Below are positions 4,433 to 28,431 of a stretch of DNA of 32,020 bases, piece by piece (within the stretch, counting starts at the first letter, position 1; every line of letters starts with the position of its first letter). Source of the DNA: Leisingera sp. JC1 (GTDB lineage: Bacteria; Pseudomonadota; Alphaproteobacteria; Rhodobacterales; Rhodobacteraceae). A model generated the notes under the pieces. The model ran no database searches and was not told the DNA's origin. It saw nothing but the letters and a program-made list of their open reading frames with translations. The stretch spans positions 32,615-64,634 of the forward strand of contig NZ_LYUZ01000035.1 of NCBI RefSeq assembly GCF_001679925.1, read 5' to 3'. The translations under genes were made by a program, and so were the position numbers.

Positions 4433-4483
4433 CCGGCCATGAAAAATCGATTTTTCATGGCCGGAAACCGCGCCGGTTTCCGG
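4433..4483 (-). terminator. Two adjoining perfect hairpins downstream of the GlxA-type regulator
   Basis: Directly after the regulator's stop (4489) lies a 10-bp stem with a 3-base loop, CCGGAAACCG/CGGTTTCCGG (4461-4483). It shares its CCGG with a perfect 32-bp palindrome at 4433-4464 centred on ATCGAT. The first probably ends glxA-type transcription. The second has no loop as DNA and might instead be a protein site or a bidirectional terminator. Beyond it, the minus strand continues with TTTCATCG, so the T tract is weak. Confidence 0.55.
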
Positions 4484-17985: not shown

Positions 17986-19161
17986 GTGGCAGTAGCACTC
18001 CACATCAATCAGCGTATCCGCGAGAACGCGGAGAACCTCAGTGCGGCCCTCAACAGCCACATGCTGGCCAGTTTTGCGCCGGATGCAAGGAAGGAATTGC
18101 GCCTGTTCAGCGCGGGCGAAGCGGCCGAGATGCTGGGGATCTCTCCCAGCTTCCTGCGCAAGCTGCATTTTGACGGCAAATTCCCCGAGGTGCACACCAC
18201 GCCGGGCGGCCGCCGCCATTATTCCGCCGCCGACCTGATGGAGATGCGCAAGATCCTGGATGCCGCGGCCAAAACCCCCGGCACCTACCTGCGCGGCCGC
18301 CGTGAGGGCGACAAGGTGCAGGTGCTGTCGTTCCTGAACTTCAAGGGCGGATCGGGCAAGACCACCTCGTCCATTCACACCGCGCAGCGGCTGGCGCTCA
18401 AGGGCTACCGGGTGCTGGCGGTGGATATCGACCCGCAGGCCTCGCTGACGACGCTTTTCGGCTACCGTCCAGAGGTCGATTTCCTCGAAACAGGGACGAT
18501 TTATGACGCAATCCGCTATGATGACCCCCTGCCCCTGCGCGACATCATCCAGGAAACCTATTTCGCCAATCTGGACCTCGCTCCCGGCGGGCTGATCCTG
18601 CAGGAATTCGAACACGAGACCCCGCAGGCGCTGATCAACAACGTGCAGCCCGCGTTTTTCTCGCGCATGGCGGCGGCGCTGGAGGAGGTCGAGAAGGATT
18701 ACGACGTCATCATCTTCGACTGCCCGCCGCAGCTGGGCTATCTGACGATGTCGGCGCTCTGCGCCTCCACCGGGGTGATCATCACCGTGGTGCCGAACAT
18801 GCTCGACATCGCCTCGATGTCGCAGTTCCTGCAGATGTCAGCCGAACTTCTGGACGTGGTCTCCAACGCAGGCGCCGCGCTGGAATTCGATTTCCTGCGC
18901 TTCCTCATCAACCGTTACGAGCCAAACGACGGCCCGCAGCAACAAGTGGTTGCATTTCTGCGGCAGCTGTTCGGCGAGGAAGTGATGGTCGCCCCGATGC
19001 TGAAATCCACCGCGATTTCCGACGCGGGCCTGACCCAGCAAACCGTCTATGAGGTCGAAAGGTCCATGTTTCACAGGTCAACCTACGACCGTGCGGTCGA
19101 TTCACTGAATCAAGTTAACGATGAAATAGAATCGCTCCTTCAACAAGCATGGAGGCGTTGA
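17986..19161 (+). CDS. repA: Plasmid partition ATPase RepA (ParA type)
   Basis: This 391-residue repABC-type ParA has an N-terminal MerR-like helix-turn-helix (about residues 43-75, SAGEAAEMLGISPSFLRKLH and GGRRHYS) for operator binding. The deviant Walker A is FKGGSGKTT (119-127), the second ATP motif is VDIDPQASLT (147-154), and Walker B is DVIIFDCPPQ. It moves the replicon copies apart by ATP-driven gradients and, with RepB, represses its own operon. The start is GTG at 17986 with GAGAGG upstream. Its stop TGA overlaps the repB ATG by one base (TGATG). This identifies the window as carrying a repABC replicon, typical of low-copy megaplasmids and chromids in Alphaproteobacteria. Confidence 0.97.
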   Translation: MAVALHINQRIRENAENLSAALNSHMLASFAPDARKELRLFSAGEAAEMLGISPSFLRKLHFDGKFPEVHTTPGGRRHYSAADLMEMRKILDAAAKTPGTYLRGRREGDKVQVLSFLNFKGGSGKTTSSIHTAQRLALKGYRVLAVDIDPQASLTTLFGYRPEVDFLETGTIYDAIRYDDPLPLRDIIQETYFANLDLAPGGLILQEFEHETPQALINNVQPAFFSRMAAALEEVEKDYDVIIFDCPPQLGYLTMSALCASTGVIITVVPNMLDIASMSQFLQMSAELLDVVSNAGAALEFDFLRFLINRYEPNDGPQQQVVAFLRQLFGEEVMVAPMLKSTAISDAGLTQQTVYEVERSMFHRSTYDRAVDSLNQVNDEIESLLQQAWRR

Positions 19162-20135
19162 TGGCACGCAAAGGCATTCTCAGCACGGCACTCAGCAGCC
19201 CGGCAGCATCCGCTGGCGGGCCGAAACCCAAAATGATGCCCCGCGGTGCGGTCGGGGCGCTGCAATCCTCGCTCAGCAAGCTGCAGGAAAGCGCGGTGCA
19301 GGAAATTGACGCCGCGCTGATCGATGACGCGGGCTACGAAGACCGGCTGGGTCTGGACGGCGCCGCGCATAACCAGTTGAAGGAGAGCCTGCGGACCTAT
19401 GGCCAGCAGGTGCCGGTGCTGCTGCGCCCCCACCCCAAGGCGCCGGGGCGGTTCGAAATCGTCTACGGACGCCGCCGCCTGATGGCGCTGCGGGAACTTG
19501 GCATGGCCGTAAAGGCGATGGTGCGGCAGCTGGACGACCACGCGCTGGTGATGGCGCAGGGGCAGGAAAATACCTCGCGCCTGGACCTCAGCTTTATCGA
19601 AAAGGCGTCCTTTGCGGCACAACTGCAGGACGGCGGCTATGACCGGCAGACAATTGCCGCGGCGCTGTCAATCGACCTGCCGATGGTCTCACGGATGCTG
19701 AAGGTCGGCACGGCGTTTGAACTGCCGTTCCTGCGGGCAATCGGCTCCGCCCCCGGGATCGGCCGCGACCGCTGGATGCTGCTGGTCAAGCTGTTTCAGG
19801 ACCCCGCCGCTCGGGCCCGGGCAATCACCCGGACCAACCGGCCCGATTTCACCACTTTTGACTCCGACGGGCGGTTCGAGGCGGTTCTGACCCATGCTCA
19901 GGGCGTGAGCCAGGAGGTGAAAGCCCCCCCTGCCCCGCCAAAGACCCGCGCCCTGCCCGGCAGCAACGGCGCTGAGGTCGCAGGCATCAAGACAACCGCC
20001 AAGGGCATCACCCTGACGATCTCCGGCAAGCACGCGCCCGGCTTTGACGCCTGGTTCGACGAAAACGCCGAAGAGATCATGGCAGAGCTTCACGGCCGCT
20101 GGCAGCAAGACCAGCCCGAGCAGCCGGAAGACTGA
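19161..20135 (+). CDS. repB: Plasmid partition protein RepB (ParB type)
   Basis: This 324-residue repABC ParB homologue begins MARKGILSTAL. It has a ParB CTPase/nuclease-like core (VYGRRRLMALRELG, residues 101-114, and GQENTSRLDL, 134-143) and a helix-turn-helix at about 161-183 (DRQTIAAALSIDLPMVSRML) that reads the centromere palindrome. A Pro/Ala-rich linker leads to the C-terminal dimer domain. ATG 19161 was preferred over ATG 19149 because GGAGG precedes it and it overlaps the repA stop. RepB loads onto parS; the four ATTGTCAGCTGACAAT-type palindromes at 21447-23393 are the obvious sites. Confidence 0.96.
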   Translation: MARKGILSTALSSPAASAGGPKPKMMPRGAVGALQSSLSKLQESAVQEIDAALIDDAGYEDRLGLDGAAHNQLKESLRTYGQQVPVLLRPHPKAPGRFEIVYGRRRLMALRELGMAVKAMVRQLDDHALVMAQGQENTSRLDLSFIEKASFAAQLQDGGYDRQTIAAALSIDLPMVSRMLKVGTAFELPFLRAIGSAPGIGRDRWMLLVKLFQDPAARARAITRTNRPDFTTFDSDGRFEAVLTHAQGVSQEVKAPPAPPKTRALPGSNGAEVAGIKTTAKGITLTISGKHAPGFDAWFDENAEEIMAELHGRWQQDQPEQPED

Positions 20136-20268: not shown

Positions 20269-20300
20269 CTGTGCGCCGCACAGGGGCGGGTATTTTTGTC
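20269..20300 (+). promoter_or_regulatory. Leader hairpin with T tract upstream of repC
   Basis: CTGTGC-GCC-GCACAG (20269-20283), a GGGCGGG run and then TATTTTTG precede the repC ATG by about 30 bases. It looks like the attenuator stem of repABC leaders, forming when the ctRNA is bound and stopping repC transcription or hiding its start. Confidence 0.55.
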
Positions 20301-20315
20301 TTTCGTGAAAAAATC

Positions 20316-21467
20316 ATGGAACAGGCGTCCCAAATCGCATTTGGGCGGCAGGATCCGTGCGGCCGGCTGGCGGGTACTCACGACAAGTGGGACCTTCTGG
20401 CTGCACTGACGCACGCCGCCGCGGAATTTGAACTGAGCCACCGCACCCTCGGCGTCCTGAAGGCGCTGCTGACGTTTTTCCCGGAGCGCGCATTGCCAGC
20501 CGAACCGGACAGCGCCATTGTGTTCCCGTCGAACCGCAAGCTGATGGAACGGCTGAACGGGATGCCCGAAAGCACCCTGCGCCGCCATCTGGCCGCCCTC
20601 ACCCGCATCGGTATTGTCAGCCGGAAGAACAGCCCCAACCGCAAGCGTTACGCGCGCCGCAGCGGTAATGACATGGCCCTGGCCTTCGGTTTTGACCTCT
20701 CTCCCCTCGCCCGCCACGCAAGCCAGATCTTTGATGCCGCGCTGGAAGCCAAGGCCCGTGCCGAGCGTCTGGCGGTGCTGCGCGACCGGGTTGCCGTGCT
20801 GCGGCAGGAATTGCTGGAGCTGGCGGATGAGCCCTGCGAAACGCTGCTGGAAACCGCCCGTAAACTGCTGCGCCGCAAACCCTGCGAAGCCGAATTGTCC
20901 GCGATGAGCAATCTGCTGCGCGCGGAAATTGCCAGCCGGACACCAGAGGAGCCCCCGCAAGGCTCCCTGCCCTCTGCACCCAAACTGAGCGCCCCTGACA
21001 GCCAGAATGAGCGGCACATACAGGATTCAGTAAAAAAAGATTCTGACTCTGAAGAGGCGCAGCCCAAAACGCCCTGCCCCGAACCTCAGCATTCAGGTGC
21101 AACGTCTGGCAATGCAGAGAATGCCGGTGATCTCGCCACCGTCTTGCGCGCCTGCCCCGAAGTGCAAACCTATTACCCCGGTGCGCTGCGCAGCTGGCAG
21201 GATGCCGACCGCATTGCCGAAACCCTGTCACCGATGATGGGGATCGAAATGCCGGTTCTGAGCGATGCACGTGCTGCCATGGGCCGCAAGGAGGCGGCAA
21301 CGGCTGTCATGTGCATGCTGGAGAAACTCGGCTCCATCCGCAGCCCCGGCGCTTACCTCAGACGCTTGGCGCAGAAGGCGCGTGCGGGCCAGTTTTCCAC
21401 GGCACCGATGCTGAACGCACTGCTGCAGGCGGGGAACCGGGCGGAGATTGTCAGCTGCCAATTTTAG
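20316..21467 (+). CDS. repC: Replication initiator RepC
   Basis: This 383-residue RepC-family initiator runs from ATG 20316; an in-frame GTG at 20271 would place the start inside the leader hairpin and is rejected. The N-terminal two-thirds has the FGRxxP-like opening (FGRQDPCGRLAG) and winged-helix DNA-binding segments (SNRKLMERLNGMPESTLRRH and LAALTRIGIVSRKNSPNRK). The C-terminal domain after about residue 270 is joined by a low-complexity linker. RepC binds the origin, which in this family lies within repC itself; an AT-rich stretch at 21025-21053 is the likely melting region. The last codons (IVSCQF and the stop) are also a parS-like palindrome. Its ribosome site is weak, as expected for a gene held down by antisense RNA. 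Confidence 0.95.
   Translation: MEQASQIAFGRQDPCGRLAGTHDKWDLLAALTHAAAEFELSHRTLGVLKALLTFFPERALPAEPDSAIVFPSNRKLMERLNGMPESTLRRHLAALTRIGIVSRKNSPNRKRYARRSGNDMALAFGFDLSPLARHASQIFDAALEAKARAERLAVLRDRVAVLRQELLELADEPCETLLETARKLLRRKPCEAELSAMSNLLRAEIASRTPEEPPQGSLPSAPKLSAPDSQNERHIQDSVKKDSDSEEAQPKTPCPEPQHSGATSGNAENAGDLATVLRACPEVQTYYPGALRSWQDADRIAETLSPMMGIEMPVLSDARAAMGRKEAATAVMCMLEKLGSIRSPGAYLRRLAQKARAGQFSTAPMLNALLQAGNRAEIVSCQF
21447..21462. promoter_or_regulatory. parS-like palindrome 1, overlapping the end of repC
   Basis: ATTGTCAGCTGCCAAT differs from the perfect palindrome ATTGTCAGCTGACAAT at one base and encodes the last residues of RepC, just before its TAG. Confidence 0.7.
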
Positions 21468-21546: not shown

Positions 21547-21562
21547 ATTGTCAGCTGGCAAC
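21547..21562. promoter_or_regulatory. parS-like palindrome 2
   Basis: ATTGTCAGCTGGCAAC matches the consensus palindrome at 14 of 16 positions, 85 bases after site 1. The left half and centre are intact. Confidence 0.65.
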
Positions 21563-21692: not shown

Positions 21693-21710
21693 AATTGTCA
21701 GCTGACAATT
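21693..21710. promoter_or_regulatory. parS-like palindrome 3, perfect
   Basis: AATTGTCAGCTGACAATT is a perfect 18-bp palindrome 130 bases after site 2. Multiple copies near repABC are expected of the RepB centromere. Confidence 0.82.
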
Positions 21711-21811: not shown

Positions 21812-23137
21812 ATGCTCTCCATCCTCAAGAACCGGACCTACCGGCATCTGTTCCTAGCCCAGATCGTGGCGCTCAGCGGCACCGGACTGGCGACAGTGGC
21901 GCTTGGCCTTCTGGCCTATGATCTGGCCGGGGAGCGTGCCGGTGTGGTGCTGGGCACCGCATTGACGATCAAGATGGTGGCCTATGTCACCGTGTCCCCG
22001 ATTGCCGCCGCCTGGGCCGAACAGGTGGACCGGGGCAGGATGCTGATCGCGCTGGACATGGTGCGGATGGCGGTTGCGGTTTGCCTGCCGTTCGTCACGG
22101 AGGTCTGGCAAGTCTATCTGCTGATCTTCGTGCTGCAATCGGCCTCAGCTGGTTTCACGCCTGCCTTCCAGGCCTCGATCCCCGACGTGCTGACGGAGGA
22201 GAAGGATTATACCCAGGCTTTGTCGCTGTCGCGGATGGCGTATGAACTGGAAAGCCTCATCAGCCCAATGCTGGCCGCGGCTCTGCTGGTTCTGGTCAGC
22301 TCCTCGACACTGTTCTGGGGCACTGCGGCGGGGTTTGCAGCCTCAGCCTTGCTGCTCGTCTCCATCGTTCTGCCGTCGCCAGCGCCCAAGGCGCCGCGGC
22401 CGATCTGGCAGCGCACCACCCGCGGCATCCGGAATTATCTGCGCACACCGCGGCTGCGCGGGCTGCTGGCAATGAACTGGGTGGTCTCGGCGATGGCGGC
22501 GATGGTGCTGGTCAATACAGTGGTGCTGGTGCGCGCCGGGCTGGGGCGGGGCGAAAGCGCAGTGGCGCTGGCCTTGGCCTGTTTCGGCGGTGGCTCGATG
22601 CTGTCGGCGATGCTGCTGCCGCGGCTGCTGGAGCGTGCTCCTGACCGCAGCGTGATGCTGGCGGGCGGCGTGCTGGGGACTGCCGCATTGGGGCTGCTGG
22701 CGCTGGCAGCACTGGCACTGCCGCTGAGCTTTGCACGGCTGGCAATTGCCTGGTTTGTTATCGGCCTCGGCTATTCCGCCGTGATGACGCCCTCGGGGCG
22801 GCTGCTGGCGCGCTCGGCCCATGCAGAGGACCGGCCTGCAGTCTTTGCTGCGCAGTTCACCCTTTCGCATGCCTGCTGGCTGGTCTTCTATCCGCTGTCG
22901 GCCTGGCTGATGGCGGTCTGGGGGGCAGGGCCGGCGATGCTGGTGCTGGCGCTGCTGGCTGCTGCCGGGCTGATCGTGGCGCAGCGCCTGTGGCCCGCGG
23001 ACAGTGCCGCGCCGGTGGCACACAGCCACCCGGACTTGCCGCCGGATCATCCGCATTTGCAGGGCGGCCACCCGCATGCGCATCCGATCATCATCGACGA
23101 TCTGCACCCCCGGATCCCGCGGAAAGAGGGGATCTAG
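21812..23137 (+). CDS. MFS exporter with His-rich C-terminal tail (NreB/EntS-like)
   Basis: This 441-residue inner-membrane protein has about 12 hydrophobic segments and the MFS_3 layout (FLAQIVALSGTGLATVALGL at the start; the loop AEQVDRGRML in place of the usual DRxGRR motif). Its last 41 residues are cytoplasmic or exposed and carry eight histidines among Pro/Asp (AHSHPDLPPDHPHLQGGHPH and on). NreB-type nickel exporters share an MFS body with a His-rich tail, so divalent-metal export (Ni, Zn, Co or Cu) is a reasonable guess. EntS-like siderophore or drug export is the alternative. ATG 21812 has AAGG upstream; the frame stays open 39 codons farther up, through the region after parS site 3. 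It lies between repC and the hut operon, apparently as a single gene. Confidence 0.88.
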   Translation: MLSILKNRTYRHLFLAQIVALSGTGLATVALGLLAYDLAGERAGVVLGTALTIKMVAYVTVSPIAAAWAEQVDRGRMLIALDMVRMAVAVCLPFVTEVWQVYLLIFVLQSASAGFTPAFQASIPDVLTEEKDYTQALSLSRMAYELESLISPMLAAALLVLVSSSTLFWGTAAGFAASALLLVSIVLPSPAPKAPRPIWQRTTRGIRNYLRTPRLRGLLAMNWVVSAMAAMVLVNTVVLVRAGLGRGESAVALALACFGGGSMLSAMLLPRLLERAPDRSVMLAGGVLGTAALGLLALAALALPLSFARLAIAWFVIGLGYSAVMTPSGRLLARSAHAEDRPAVFAAQFTLSHACWLVFYPLSAWLMAVWGAGPAMLVLALLAAAGLIVAQRLWPADSAAPVAHSHPDLPPDHPHLQGGHPHAHPIIIDDLHPRIPRKEGI

Positions 23138-23241: not shown

Positions 23242-24450
23242 GTGACGGGAAACTATGTTCTGACAGGCGCGCGGCTGGCCACGATGGCCGGAACGGACAC
23301 GCCTTACGGGCTGATTGAAGACGGCGCTGTTGCGGTTTCCGACGGGAAAATCGTCTGGGCCGGGCTGCGGCAGAAATTGTCAGCTGACAATTTTCCCTGG
23401 AAGCATGTTGATCTGAACGGGCGGCTGGTCACGCCGGGCCTGATCGACTGCCACACCCATATCGTATTCGGCGGTAACCGGGCGATGGAGTTCGAGATGC
23501 GCCTCAATGGCGCGTCATATGAGGAAGTCGCTAGGGCAGGGGGCGGCATCGTCTCCACCGTGTCGGCCACCCGCCAGGCATCGCTTGAACAGCTGGTGCA
23601 GGATGCGCTGCAGCGCCTGGATGCGCTGATCGCCGAGGGCGCAACGGTTGTGGAGGTGAAATCCGGCTACGGGCTGGATCTGAATACCGAGCTGAACATG
23701 CTGCGCGCTGCCCGCCGCCTCGGTGAACTGCGCCCGGTGACGGTGAAAACCACCTTCCTCGGCGCCCATGCCACCCCCGGAGAATACAAGGGCCGCGACG
23801 ATGAATACATCGACGAAGTCTGCATTCCCGCCCTGCGCGCGGCCCATGCGGAGGGGCTGGTGGATGCGGTCGATGGCTTCTGCGAAAACATCGCCTTTGC
23901 GCCTGCGCAGATCGAACGGGTGTTCAAGGTCGCGCAGGAGCTGGGCTTGCCGGTGAAACTGCATGCCGAGCAGCTGAGCCATCAAGGCGGCACCGCACTG
24001 GCGGCGCAGTACGGCGCGCTGTCGATCGATCACGTGGAATACGCCACCGAAGACGACGCCAGGGCGATGGCGGCCGCTGGCTCCGTTGCGGTGATCCTGC
24101 CCGGTGCGTTCTACACCATCCGCGAAACACAGATGCCGCCGATTGACCACTTCCGCACCCATGGCGTGCCGATGGCATTGGCGACCGACTGCAATCCCGG
24201 CTCTTCGCCGCTGACCTCGCTGCTGCTGACGATGAACATGGGCTGCACCCTGTTCCGGATGACGCCGGAGGAAGCGCTGGCAGGCGTCACCCGCAACGCG
24301 GCCCGCGCGCTGGGTCTGACGGACCGCGGCCAGATTGCTGCCGGCATGCGTGCCGATCTGGCGGTCTGGGACGTGGAAACGCCCGGCGAGCTCGCCTACC
24401 GAATCGGCTTCAACCCGCTTTACACCCGTATCTATGAGGGAAAACGATGA
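23242..24450 (+). CDS. hutI: Imidazolonepropionase
   Basis: This 402-residue amidohydrolase-superfamily enzyme hydrolyses imidazolone-5-propionate to N-formimino-L-glutamate. The metal site begins with His71-x-His73 in [10 protein letters not shown]; further landmarks are the [10 protein letters not shown] strand and [10 protein letters not shown] near the C-terminal catalytic Asp. The length is normal. The start is GTG 23242 with a GGGGGG ribosome site. Codons 45-51 (KLSADNF) are encoded by a perfect parS palindrome, in the variable N-terminal segment just before the conserved [14 protein letters not shown]. The stop overlaps the hutH ATG (ATGA). First gene of the histidine-degradation operon. 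Confidence 0.96.
23374..23393. promoter_or_regulatory. parS-like palindrome 4, perfect 20 bp, inside hutI
   Basis: AAATTGTCAGCTGACAATTT is the longest copy of the partition palindrome in the window. It is 1,664 bases beyond site 3 and lies within the hutI reading frame, where it encodes KLSADNF without breaking it. Confidence 0.8.
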
Positions 24451-25970
24451 TCGAGATGATCCCCGGCACGGTGACGCTGTCCACGCTGGAAGATATCTAC
24501 CGCAACCTGACCCCGGCCAAGCTGGCGTCTTCGGCGCGTGAGCCGGTGGAGGCCGCCGCGAAAATGGTGGCAGAGGCCGCTGCGGGTGAGGAAGCCGTCT
24601 ATGGCATCAACACCGGTTTCGGCAAACTGGCCTCGACCAAGATCGCACCGGCTGACACCGCCACCCTGCAGCGCAACCTGATCCTCAGCCACTGCTGCGG
24701 GGTAGGGGAGGCGCTGCCGGAGGACAAGACCCGGCTGATGATGACGCTGAAGCTCTTGTCGATGGGCCGCGGCGCGTCGGGCGTGCGCTGGCTGGTGATC
24801 GAGCAGATCGAGCAGATGCTGGAACGCGGCGTGGTGCCGGTGATCCCGTCGCAGGGGTCCGTGGGCGCGTCGGGCGACCTGGCACCGCTGGCGCATATGG
24901 CGGCGGCGATGATCGGGGCAGGGGAGGCCACGTTCGAAGGCACCCGCATGTCCAGCGCGGAAGCGCTGAAAAAGGCCGGGTTAGAGCCTATTGTGCTGGG
25001 ACCCAAGGAAGGCCTGGGGCTGATCAACGGCACCCAGTTCTCCACCGCCTGCGCGCTGGGGGGGCTGTTTGACGCCTGGCGCATGGCAGAGGCGTCTATG
25101 GCGATTGCCTCGCTGAGCACCGACGCCATCATGGGCTCCACCGCGCCGCTGATCGCCGACATCCACACCCTGCGCGGCCATGCCGGGCAGATCGACGTGG
25201 CCCGCGAAATGCGCGGGATCATGGACGGGTCTGAGATCCGCGAGAGCCACCGCGAGGGCGACACCCGCGTGCAGGACCCGTACTGTATCCGCTGCCAGCC
25301 GCAGGTGGTGGGCGCGGCACTGGACGTACTGCGGATGGCCGCCAAAACGCTGGAGATCGAGGCCAATGCCGTCACCGACAACCCGCTGGTGCTGGTGAAC
25401 GAAGGCCGGATCGTCTCGGGCGGCAACTTCCACGCCGAATATGTGGGCTTTGCCGCGGATCAGATCGCGCTGGCCGTCGCCGAAATCGGCGCCATCGCGC
25501 AGCGCCGGGTGGCGCTGATGGTGGATCCGACCCTCAGCCACGACCTGCCGCCGTTCCTGACGCCGGATCCAGGCCTCAATTCCGGTTTCATGATTGCCGA
25601 AGTCACAACCGCCGCGCTGATGAGCGAGAACAAGCATCTGGCCAACCCCTGCGTGACCGACTCGACCCCGACCTCGGCCAATCAGGAGGACCATGTGTCC
25701 ATGGCCGCCCATGGCGCGCTGCGGCTGTCGAAGATGAACGCCAACCTGTCGGTGATCCTCGGCGTCGAAATGCTCTGCGCCGCACAAGGGGTGGAGGCGC
25801 GCGCGCCGCTCATGACCTCCGCCCGGCTGCAGGACGTGCTGGCAATGCTGCGCACCGATATCCCCGCGCTGGCAGAGGACCGCTACCTGGCGCCCGACAT
25901 CGAAGCCGCCAGCGCCATGGTCCGTGCGGGACGGATTGCGGAGGCCGCAGGCGTGAAGGTGACGGCATGA
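24447..25970 (+). CDS. hutH: Histidine ammonia-lyase
   Basis: This 507-residue enzyme deaminates histidine to urocanate. The Ala141-Ser142-Gly143 triad in [14 protein letters not shown] forms the MIO electrophile, and Tyr52 in VYGINTGFG is the catalytic tyrosine. Other family signatures are [11 protein letters not shown] and [20 protein letters not shown] (the latter close to the invariant QDxYSxRCxPQVxG). ATG 24447 overlaps the hutI stop. Normal length; cytosolic homotetramer by family knowledge. It catalyses the first chemical step though it is the second gene of the operon. Confidence 0.97.
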
Positions 25971-26752
25971 TCGAAGTGACCCAAGGCACCTCGCCGCTGG
26001 TGCTGGGCTTGCCCCACACCGGCACCGATGTGCCGCCGGACATCTGGGAGTGCCTGAACGAGACGGGCAGGGCGCTGGCCGATACCGATTGGCATATCCA
26101 TGACCTGTATTCCGGGCTGGCAGAGGAGGTGACAACCGTCCGCACACCGGTCCACCGCTATGTGATCGACGTGAACCGCGATCCGGGTGGTATCAGTCTA
26201 TATCCCGGGCAAAACACCACCACTCTGGTGCCGCTCACGGATTTTGACGGGCTGCCGATCTGGCAGGAGGGCAAGGAACCGGATGAGGCGGAGATCACCC
26301 GCCGCCGCGACGCCTATCACGCGCCCTATCACGCGGCGCTGACGGCGGAGATGCAGCGGGTGAAGGCGATCCATGGCTTTGCCATCCTCTACGACTGCCA
26401 CTCAATCCGCGGCGACATTCCGTTCCTGTTCGAGGGCCGCCTGCCGGATTTCAATGTGGGAACCAACATGGGCGAAACCTGCGACGCTTCGATCGAGGCG
26501 CTGACCGTGGCCCAATGCGCGGCGGCGGAGGGTTATACCTCCACCCTCAACGGCCGTTTCAAGGGCGGCTGGACCACCCGCCACTACGGGCGCCCTGCGG
26601 ACGGCCTGCACGCTATCCAGATGGAGCTGGCGCAGGCCACCTACTGCCAGGAAAGCCCGCCCTGGACCTATCTGCAGGAGCGCGCGGAAGAACTGCGCGC
26701 CCATCTCACCAACATTCTGACTGATCTCAAAAACTGGAGGCCCTCGGCATGA
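25967..26752 (+). CDS. hutG: N-formylglutamate deformylase
   Basis: This 261-residue member of the N-formylglutamate amidohydrolase family hydrolyses N-formyl-L-glutamate to glutamate and formate. Likely metal-binding landmarks are LPHTGTDVP near residue 18, [11 protein letters not shown] near 65, and [16 protein letters not shown] near 145. It is not the ureohydrolase type of HutG, so the operon belongs to the five-step route in which HutF first deiminates formiminoglutamate. It overlaps hutH and hutU by four bases on each side. No hutF is in the window. Confidence 0.93.
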
Positions 26753-28431
26753 GCGATCCCCGCAAGAACACCCGCGACATCTTTCCGCCCACCGGCCCGG
26801 AAATCACCGCCAAGTCCTGGCTCACTGAGGCGCCGATGCGGATGATGATGAACAATTTGCATCCCGACGTCGCGGAAAACCCGCATGAGCTGGTGGTCTA
26901 CGGCGGCATCGGCCGCGCCGCGCGCACCTGGAAGGACTTCGACCTCATTGTCGAAAACCTGAAAAACCTCGAGGAAGACCAGACCCTGATGGTGCAGTCC
27001 GGCAAGCCGGTCGGCGTGTTCCAGACCCACAAGGACGCGCCGCGGGTGTTGATCGCGAACTCGAACCTCGTACCGCATTGGGCCAACTGGGACCACTTCA
27101 ATGAGCTCGATAAGAAGGGCCTGATGATGTACGGCCAGATGACCGCTGGCTCGTGGATTTACATCGGCACCCAAGGCATCGTGCAGGGCACCTATGAGAC
27201 CTTTGCCGAGGCCGGTCGTCAGCATTACGGCGGTGACCTGAAGGGTAAGTGGATCCTGACCGGCGGCCTGGGCGGCATGGGTGGCGCGCAGCCGCTGGCA
27301 GCCGTGTTTGCCGGTGCCTGCTGCCTCGCGGTGGAGTGCAACCCCGACAGCATCGACTTCCGCCTGCGCACCAAATATCTGGACGAGAAAGCCGAAACCC
27401 TCGACGAAGCGCTGGAGATGATCGAGCGCTGGACCGCGGCAGGTGAGGCGAAATCCGTGGGCCTCTTGGGCAACGCGGCAGAGATCTTCCCGGAGCTGGT
27501 GAAACGCGCCGAAGCAGGCGGCATCCGCCCCGATATCGTGACCGACCAGACCTCCGCCCACGACCCGGTCAACGGCTACCTGCCGCTGGGCTGGACCATG
27601 GGCGAATGGAAAGAGCGCCGAGAATCGGACAAGAAAGCGGTGGAAAAGGCCGCCCGCGCCTCGATGAAGGTGCAAGTGAAGGCGATGTGCGACTTCCACG
27701 CGATGGGTGTGCCCACGGTGGATTACGGCAACAACATCCGCCAGATGGCGCTGGAGGAGGGGCTGGAGAACGCCTTTGACTTTCCGGGCTTCGTGCCCGC
27801 CTATATCCGCCCGTTGTTCTGCAAGGGCATCGGCCCGTTCCGCTGGTGCGCTCTGTCGGGCGATCCGGAGGATATCCGCAAGACCGACGCCAAGATGAAG
27901 GAGCTGTTCCCGGAGAACGAAGGCCTGCACCGCTGGCTGGACATGGCGCAGGAACGCATCGCCTTCCAGGGCCTGCCTGCGCGGATCTGCTGGATCGGCC
28001 TCGGCGACCGGCACAAGGCCGGCCTCGCGTTCAACGAGATGGTCCGCAATGGCGAGCTGTCGGCACCGGTGGTGATTGGCCGCGACCATCTGGACTCGGG
28101 TTCTGTCGCGTCTCCGAACCGGGAGACAGAGGCGATGATGGACGGTTCTGACGCGGTCTCTGACTGGCCGCTCTTGAACGCGCTGTTGAACACCGCTTCC
28201 GGCGCGACCTGGGTGTCGCTGCACCATGGCGGCGGCGTTGGCATGGGCTTCTCGCAGCATTCCGGCGTGGTGATTTGCTGCGACGGCACCGAGGACGCAG
28301 ACCGCCGCATTGGCCGCGTGCTGTGGAATGACCCGGCGACCGGCGTCATGCGCCATGCGGACGCGGGCTATGACATCGCCAAGGACTGCGCGCGGGAGCA
28401 CGGGCTGAACCTGCCCGGCATCCTGGGCTGA
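26749..28431 (+). CDS. hutU: Urocanate hydratase (urocanase)
   Basis: This 560-residue enzyme converts urocanate to imidazolonepropionate with tightly bound NAD. It shows the NAD-binding glycine loop [19 protein letters not shown] (about residues 170-188), the catalytic-Cys segment [14 protein letters not shown] (around 360-373), and the near-universal [15 protein letters not shown] in the C-terminal third. Full length. ATG 26749 overlaps the hutG stop (ATGA), and a strong terminator follows 28 bases after its stop. Fourth and last gene of hutIHGU. Confidence 0.97.

Follow-up and report, generated by a model that had tools for sequence, protein, structure and literature searches.

The window analysed here, a stretch of 32,020 nucleotides from the 5.19-Mb genome of Leisingera sp. 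JC1, carries the genes repA, repB, and repC, followed on the same strand by the gene of an MFS transporter and by the hut genes. The features considered below are as follows.

17986–19161, plus strand: repA, encoding a ParA-type ATPase with a match to an N-terminal helix-turn-helix (Pfam)
19149–20135, plus strand: repB, encoding a protein with ParB_N and RepB domains (Pfam), the proposed reader of the palindrome
20316–21467, plus strand: repC, encoding an RP-C replication protein, with the start chosen inside a longer open frame that begins at 20271
21448–21461, no strand: one-mismatch copy TTGTCAGCTGCCAA, within the 3′ end of repC
21548–21561, no strand: one-mismatch copy TTGTCAGCTGGCAA, intergenic, 3′ of repC
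21693–21710, no strand: 18-bp palindrome AATTGTCAGCTGACAATT, in the spacer that separates repC from the MFS gene, with the exact 14-mer TTGTCAGCTGACAA at 21695–21708
21814–23137, plus strand: MFS transporter gene, between repC and hutI
23242–24450, plus strand: hutI, encoding imidazolonepropionase, with a GTG start at 23242
23374–23393, no strand: 20-bp palindrome AAATTGTCAGCTGACAATTT, inside codons 45–51 of hutI, a proposed parS-type site of RepB
24447–28431, plus strand: hutH, hutG, and hutU, the remaining hut genes, in an order shared with annotated plasmids

As in other repABC replicons, the three rep genes point in one direction and their products match the Pfam families AAA_31, ParB_N together with RepB, and RP-C together with RP-C_C. 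Additionally, the sequence of RepB shows weak similarity to ParB and Noc chains (E values of 7e-10 to 4e-4). When a 3.45-kb query comprising repC, the MFS gene, and hutI was used, the closest plasmid records were Leisingera plasmids of 145–356 kb, and 16 plasmid records span at least 80% of the query. In the L. thetidis record, the part from the MFS gene to hutI is matched without this repC. The same repC–MFS–hutI locus is present in a 220,701-bp plasmid of L. methylohalidivorans, classed as RepC-8 in the portion of PMC3910543 that deals with it, and hutI is plasmid-encoded in that species (PMC4197683). A 275,981-bp plasmid of L. daeponensis is also classed as RepC-8 in the corresponding portion of PMC3910554, and for a 245,600-bp plasmid two tables are in conflict, giving either RepC-2 or RepC-8 (PMC3910702). 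The term RepB-8 for the protein of this locus is a label only, taken from the locus shared with the RepC-8 plasmid of L. methylohalidivorans.

The palindrome in hutI and its conservation

The sequence AAATTGTCAGCTGACAATTT at positions 23374–23393 is a perfect palindrome of 20 bp that lies in frame within hutI, where it forms codons 45–51 and reads KLSADNF in a script translation of the window. Its sequence and coordinates agree exactly with the first-pass annotation, which had also claimed that this palindrome matches copies near repC and is the longest of them. These copies are indeed found at 21448 and 21548, with one mismatch each, and at 21695, where the match is exact; the hutI copy is the longest of its motif family, because the next longest extends over only 18 bp (21693–21710). 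Among all zero-spacer palindromes in the window it is the second-longest. The longest one, a perfect palindrome of 32 bp (CCGGCCATGAAAAATCGATTTTTCATGGCCGG, 4433–4464), lies between two reading frames and is unrelated to the palindrome of hutI.

With up to one mismatch allowed, the 14-mer TTGTCAGCTGACAA occurs four times in the 5.19-Mb genome; two of the copies are exact, the other two have one mismatch, and the four lie inside 2 kb between the 3′ end of repC and hutI. At the composition of the window, only 0.006 exact 14-mers would be expected by chance per 5.19 Mb, and the reversed form of TTGTCAGCTGACAA, used as a control pattern, has no match in this genome. In 15 of 19 repC genes of the genus, the stop codon of repC is the TGA of the palindrome. 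At positions 21448–21467 of the window, this TGA is changed to TGC and repC is three codons longer.

The palindrome had been proposed to fall in a variable loop ahead of a conserved segment, and sequence alignments bear this out. In an alignment with solved HutI chains, a one-residue gap adjoins the palindrome-coded segment; in outgroup proteins, the residues of the site vary freely, often reading LPAD or LPAE, and are followed by a conserved stretch that ends with LIDCHTH. The HutI protein would tolerate the palindrome because codons 45–51 appear to lie in this variable loop.

All 21 genomes of the genus that were searched (G000–G020) contain hutI, and the palindrome is found at the same codons in each of them. 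The 14-mer is exact in 18 and has one mismatch in three (G005, G010, and G020), and all 20 bases are identical in seven. The sole substitution within the 14-mer, shared by these three genomes, changes TCA to CCA (Ser to Pro) and yields TTGCCAGCTGACAA, a variant that is found among other sites of the array too. Four further named plasmids, drawn from the records that matched the 3.45-kb query, carry the exact 14-mer in hutI. Outside the genus, the 14-mer is present in none of 32 hutI genes (64–82% protein identity), with at least four mismatches at the aligned site in all of them; these genes comprise 27 loci that were the best matches among 134 genomes matched, as well as five other loci. Four more distant hutI loci, screened to no more than two mismatches, also have no site. 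Among the hutI genes examined, the palindrome is thus found in all of those inside the genus and in none of those outside it (21/21 vs 0/32).

The conservation extends to the choice of codons. When synonymous changes are counted on a tree built from the 21 hutI genes, the LSAD codons have none, compared with 3.14 for the average degenerate codon, and for random codons of equal degeneracy the probability of such a result is about 5e-4. Of 398 four-codon segments of the gene, six are free of synonymous changes, and three of these six overlap the LSAD site. Against selection at the site it may be held that, taken singly, 12% of the hutI codons with at least four-fold degeneracy are likewise free of such changes, and that a second stretch of hutI, MGCTLF, is equally invariant; this stretch, however, consists of common codons. 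At the palindrome, the codons TTG, TCA, and GCT account for only 11%, 14%, and 7%, respectively, of the codons for their own amino acids in these hutI genes (site included). Synonymous conservation at the site is therefore in excess of that in the rest of the gene, as would be expected of a coding parS under selection at the DNA level. The bases flanking the 14-mer follow the pattern of the array as well. Compared with a 22-bp consensus derived from 51 array sites outside hutI (AAAATTGTCAGCTGACAATTTT), the hutI site of the window differs at a single position in the flanks, and the scores of all 21 hutI sites lie inside the range of the other array sites.

Association with the RepB type

In 19 of the 21 genomes, the contig that carries hutI also encodes a cognate RepB (75–100% identical), 1.7–3.4 kb upstream of the gene; that of G006 is 81% identical to RepB of the window. 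All 19 have two or three sites in the region that extends from the end of repC to 0.3 kb beyond it, together with the hutI site at +135 (+147 in G008). The latter is found 1.8–2.2 kb past repC in 18 of these genomes and 0.45 kb past it in G008. The array and the hutI site persist in G005, where the MFS protein is only 46% identical, and they are kept in G008, where, as in G001, no MFS gene was found in the stretch.

It is the RepB type, and not the presence of hut, that the palindrome tracks, since plasmids of other genera with no hut gene in the stretch examined, as well as G040, carry copies at or past the end of repC. In 11 plasmids from nine other genera (RepB 63–69% identical), picked from 97 records matching RepB, the exact 14-mer is present at or just past the end of repC in ten and differs by one mismatch in the eleventh, from Alisedimentitalea; the stretches of these plasmids that were examined contain no hut gene. 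G040, a genome of another genus with a RepB that is 59% identical, has the palindrome exactly at two places past repC, and another copy is located on a separate contig, without RepB in the 16 kb examined there. In two Phaeobacter plasmids among the 11, a third exact copy lies farther out, about 1.7 kb past repC (L215, 5355; L216, 12041); it is intergenic and located at a distance resembling that of the hutI site. In turn, plasmid pP73A of Celeribacter indicus (L219, 3497–4000) has seven exact copies from the end of repC to 0.5 kb past it, in addition to a one-mismatch copy in repC. In the JC1 genome, none of the five other RepB-like matches (28–37% identical) has such a palindrome nearby, because the window contains every copy that has at most one mismatch.

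The motif is a RepB-type-specific palindrome with copies at or near the operon, as are the parS sites of repABC replicons. For RepABC-1 to RepABC-8 plasmids, the relevant sections of PMC5613091 and PMC9426580 describe diagnostic palindromes near repC that act as anchors of RepB. The general repABC parS consensus GTTNNNNGCNNNNAAC, as it appears in the section of PMC9040568 concerned with it, matches in the central GC and the inner TT...AA. At its outermost position, where the consensus has G/C, A/T is found in 90 of 102 half-sites, and the hutI site of the window has A/T there too. This outer base is not comparable with the group-specific palindromes, since these are given as 14-mers where PMC5613091 presents them. 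Sequence comparison shows the array of near-identical 14-mers, its tie to the RepB type, and the synonymous constraint in hutI.

We consider it probable (roughly 0.82), on the strength of these comparisons, that the hutI palindrome is the repC-distal member of the plasmid's candidate RepB parS array, a site that selection on the DNA sequence maintains within a metabolic gene. The array would consist of three to four near-identical 14-mers, two or three of them around the end of repC and one at hutI +135. By analogy with ParB biology, RepB, a member of the ParB family, would bind each 14-mer, load there, and spread; since it would do so from each of them, the hutI copy would be an added loading point about 1.9 kb past repC, in the complex moved by RepA at segregation. 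Selection would hold the rare codons TTG, TCA, and GCT in order to preserve the palindrome, and may perhaps have favored a change of Pro to Ser that also preserved it.

Two genomes, G001 and G019, have no cognate RepB, their best RepB matches being only 29% and 39% identical, and no match to repA, repB, or repC was found in the 6.5–7.4-kb stretches comprising their hutI and upstream DNA. Both have kept the hutI site, with 20 identical bases in G001 and the 14-mer in G019. In G001 this site is the only copy in the genome at up to one mismatch, and in G019 the hut genes are located on a plasmid with a different RepB (37%), encoded about 48 kb away. The first-pass annotation had suggested that a metabolic gene serving as part of a centromere would tie hut to this replicon. 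The suggestion agrees with the cognate RepB found upstream in 19 of 21 genomes; it fails in G001 and G019, so that the link between hut and this replicon can evidently be broken. The refuting case named in the same annotation, conservation of the 20 bases in hutI genes far from any repABC locus, is present in a limited form in these two genomes.

The retention of the site in G001 and G019 would also be expected if the palindrome were a relic, either a former RepB site or an ancestral chance sequence, now inherited as coding DNA without function. The copies of the genus are probably of one origin, and the LPAD or LPAE loop of many outgroups is only a few changes off. As an explanation for the genus this seems improbable: the hutI genes of G000, G001, and G019 differ from those of their nearest relatives at 23–29% of four-fold sites, and still not one synonymous change is placed in the LSAD codons across the tree of 21 tips, and the flanking bases also fit the array consensus. 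The two genomes themselves are not decisive, because the divergence is small and a recent loss of RepB could have spared the site by chance; their own hutI sites may be relics. Decay of the sites after the loss of RepB was considered and rejected as a pattern. While G019, which has no RepB, has two exact sites of nine, compared with 9/12 in G002, G003, G006, and G011 and 8/13 in G010, the pattern is broken by G004 (7/17) and G005 (1/3), which have RepB, and by G001 (1/1), which does not (all counts for sites with up to one mismatch).

Copies outside the array

Because the 14-mer also occurs outside the array, the motif alone is no proof of a role as a centromere. Exact copies on chromosome-size contigs number four each in G003, G006, and G010, at least four in G002, three in G011, and one in G004, and one or two such copies are found outside the array contig in G007, G013, G018, G019 (there, outside the hutI plasmid), and G020. 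In G002, G003, G004, G006, G010, G011, and G014, such copies on chromosome-size or large contigs lie in trmFO, in a Mur-ligase gene, or at intergenic sites, and have the same length as the differing sequence of the other genomes (loci L104–L123, L133, L146–L166, and L263–L283). At L124, L125, L127, L132, and L138, the copies are on plasmid or unassigned contigs of relatives; each is close to where a long open frame ends on its 3′ side, and the translation is LSADN or LSADK. A degenerate pattern, TTGYCAGCTGRCAA, is matched at 139 places in the 21 genomes of the genus, with none for its reversed control; the JC1 genome has four of these places, of which three fall in the window and the remaining one would correspond to intergenic site C, described below.

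Two of the genes that carry copies were compared across the genus. In trmFO (Pfam GIDA), the exact 14-mer is present in seven of 21 genomes and a one-mismatch copy in G019, with three to five mismatches in the other 13; six of these 13 genes read CTGGCCGCCGACAA, and the DNA of the 13 is 86–91% identical to the query. A Mur-ligase gene has the exact sequence in G002 and G010, one mismatch in G003, and six to eight mismatches, at equal length, in the other 18 genomes. The copies in both genes are in frame and read L-S-A-D, like the one in hutI. On the hutI tree, the genomes with the trmFO site cluster together with G019, G005, and G020, which have no exact trmFO site. Among the intergenic copies, group B has the exact palindrome in eight of 21 genomes and related palindromes in others. 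Group C has the exact palindrome in four of 20 aligned genomes (G008, with a partial match only, is omitted), and in eight of the 20 a related palindrome, TTGCCAGCTGGCAA, is located at this site.

The presence of several chromosomal copies in some relatives, part of them intergenic, and the related palindrome at site C would suit an operator bound by a transcription factor of hut, of the MFS gene, or of a chromosomal regulon, instead of a partition site. Such a role is unlikely, and more so than that of a relic, since copies with up to one mismatch in the JC1 genome are limited to this locus, the array is kept in G008 without a detected MFS gene and in the 11 plasmids whose examined stretches lack hut genes, and the hutI site is positioned 135 bp inside the gene, away from the promoter.

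It might be speculated, tentatively and with more doubt than belief, that in some Leisingera the RepB palindrome was written at unchanged length into chromosomal genes, so that hutI would belong to a wider set of docking sites located in genes. If a sequence like CTGGCCGCCGACAA became TTGTCAGCTGACAA in trmFO, and a 14-mer differing at six to eight positions gave way to it in the Mur-ligase gene, both then reading L-S-A-D, RepB may dock at defined chromosomal positions and link the segregation of plasmid and chromosome. It is also possible that another protein of the same specificity acts at the chromosomal copies. The titles and abstracts of open-access literature contained nothing pertinent on a plasmid ParB acting on host chromosomes.

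The palindrome could fold in the mRNA as a stem with an AGCU loop, but a hairpin or attenuator within hutI is very unlikely, as the 91-nt context folds no better than its shuffles (z −0.57, with an equally good fold in 47 of 200) and the 14-mer recurs in intergenic DNA outside hutI. Finally, one palindrome alone would not be extraordinary, since about 0.1 palindromes of at least 20 bp are expected per window (mean of 0.10 in 60 dinucleotide-shuffled windows), but chance is refuted by the comparative data, the palindrome sharing its motif with three neighboring copies, being rare genome-wide, and being kept in 21 of 21 genomes.

Comparison with known systems

As a distal member of the candidate parS array, the hutI palindrome would be a natural and clear-cut example of a single DNA segment that obeys two codes, that of an enzyme and that of a candidate centromere, and would offer one possible reason for a metabolic operon staying beside a replication module. 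In turn, the chromosomal copies raise the question of whether they are addresses for the plasmid partition protein on the host chromosome. A published conjecture, that repABC plasmids select parS sites in downstream genes, becomes directly testable here, because there are outgroups without the site and two genomes without the partition protein. The titles and abstracts of the open-access literature searched report no partition site in hutI, and the word parS is absent from those papers checked by word search that name hutI together with either Leisingera or repABC.

Chromosomal parS sites inside genes, for example in Bacillus subtilis, are sites of the ParB family within coding sequence. The site described here differs from them in that it belongs to a plasmid repABC system and to an array adjoining the replication gene.

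Compatibility-group palindromes of roseobacter RepABC plasmids were reportedly described by Petersen et al. in 2009. Judged by the sections of PMC5613091 and PMC9426580 that present such palindromes, the hutI-type motif resembles them in being a perfect 14-bp palindrome near repC that is specific to the RepAB type, and the central CAGCTG is common to it and to groups 1 and 2 (TTAACAG/CTGTTAA and TTCACAG/CTGTGAA). It differs from them in its own motif, TTGTCAG/CTGACAA, and in having one member in hutI. The scan, as outlined in PMC5613091, reached 500 bp beyond repC and would miss the hutI site.

The closest parallel is provided by Czarnecki et al. 2022 (PMC9040568), in whose account of Rhodobacterales repABC replicons parS sites are located 0.5–4 kb past repC, also within ORFs that include cas3, casA, and casB, and where positive selection of intragenic parS sites is proposed. 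A word search of its main text for Leisingera, histidine, and the hut genes gave no hit, and the site may stand in its supplementary tables. As far as those sites are described there, they share with the hutI site the bacterial order, the position past repC, and the location inside an ORF, whereas the present case differs in involving a metabolic gene, hutI, and in that conservation at the codon level throughout a genus and absence of the site from outgroups are documented. Intragenic parS sites past repC are thus already known in Rhodobacterales from that account (PMC9040568), and the hutI site would be a well-supported further member that adds genus-wide evidence.
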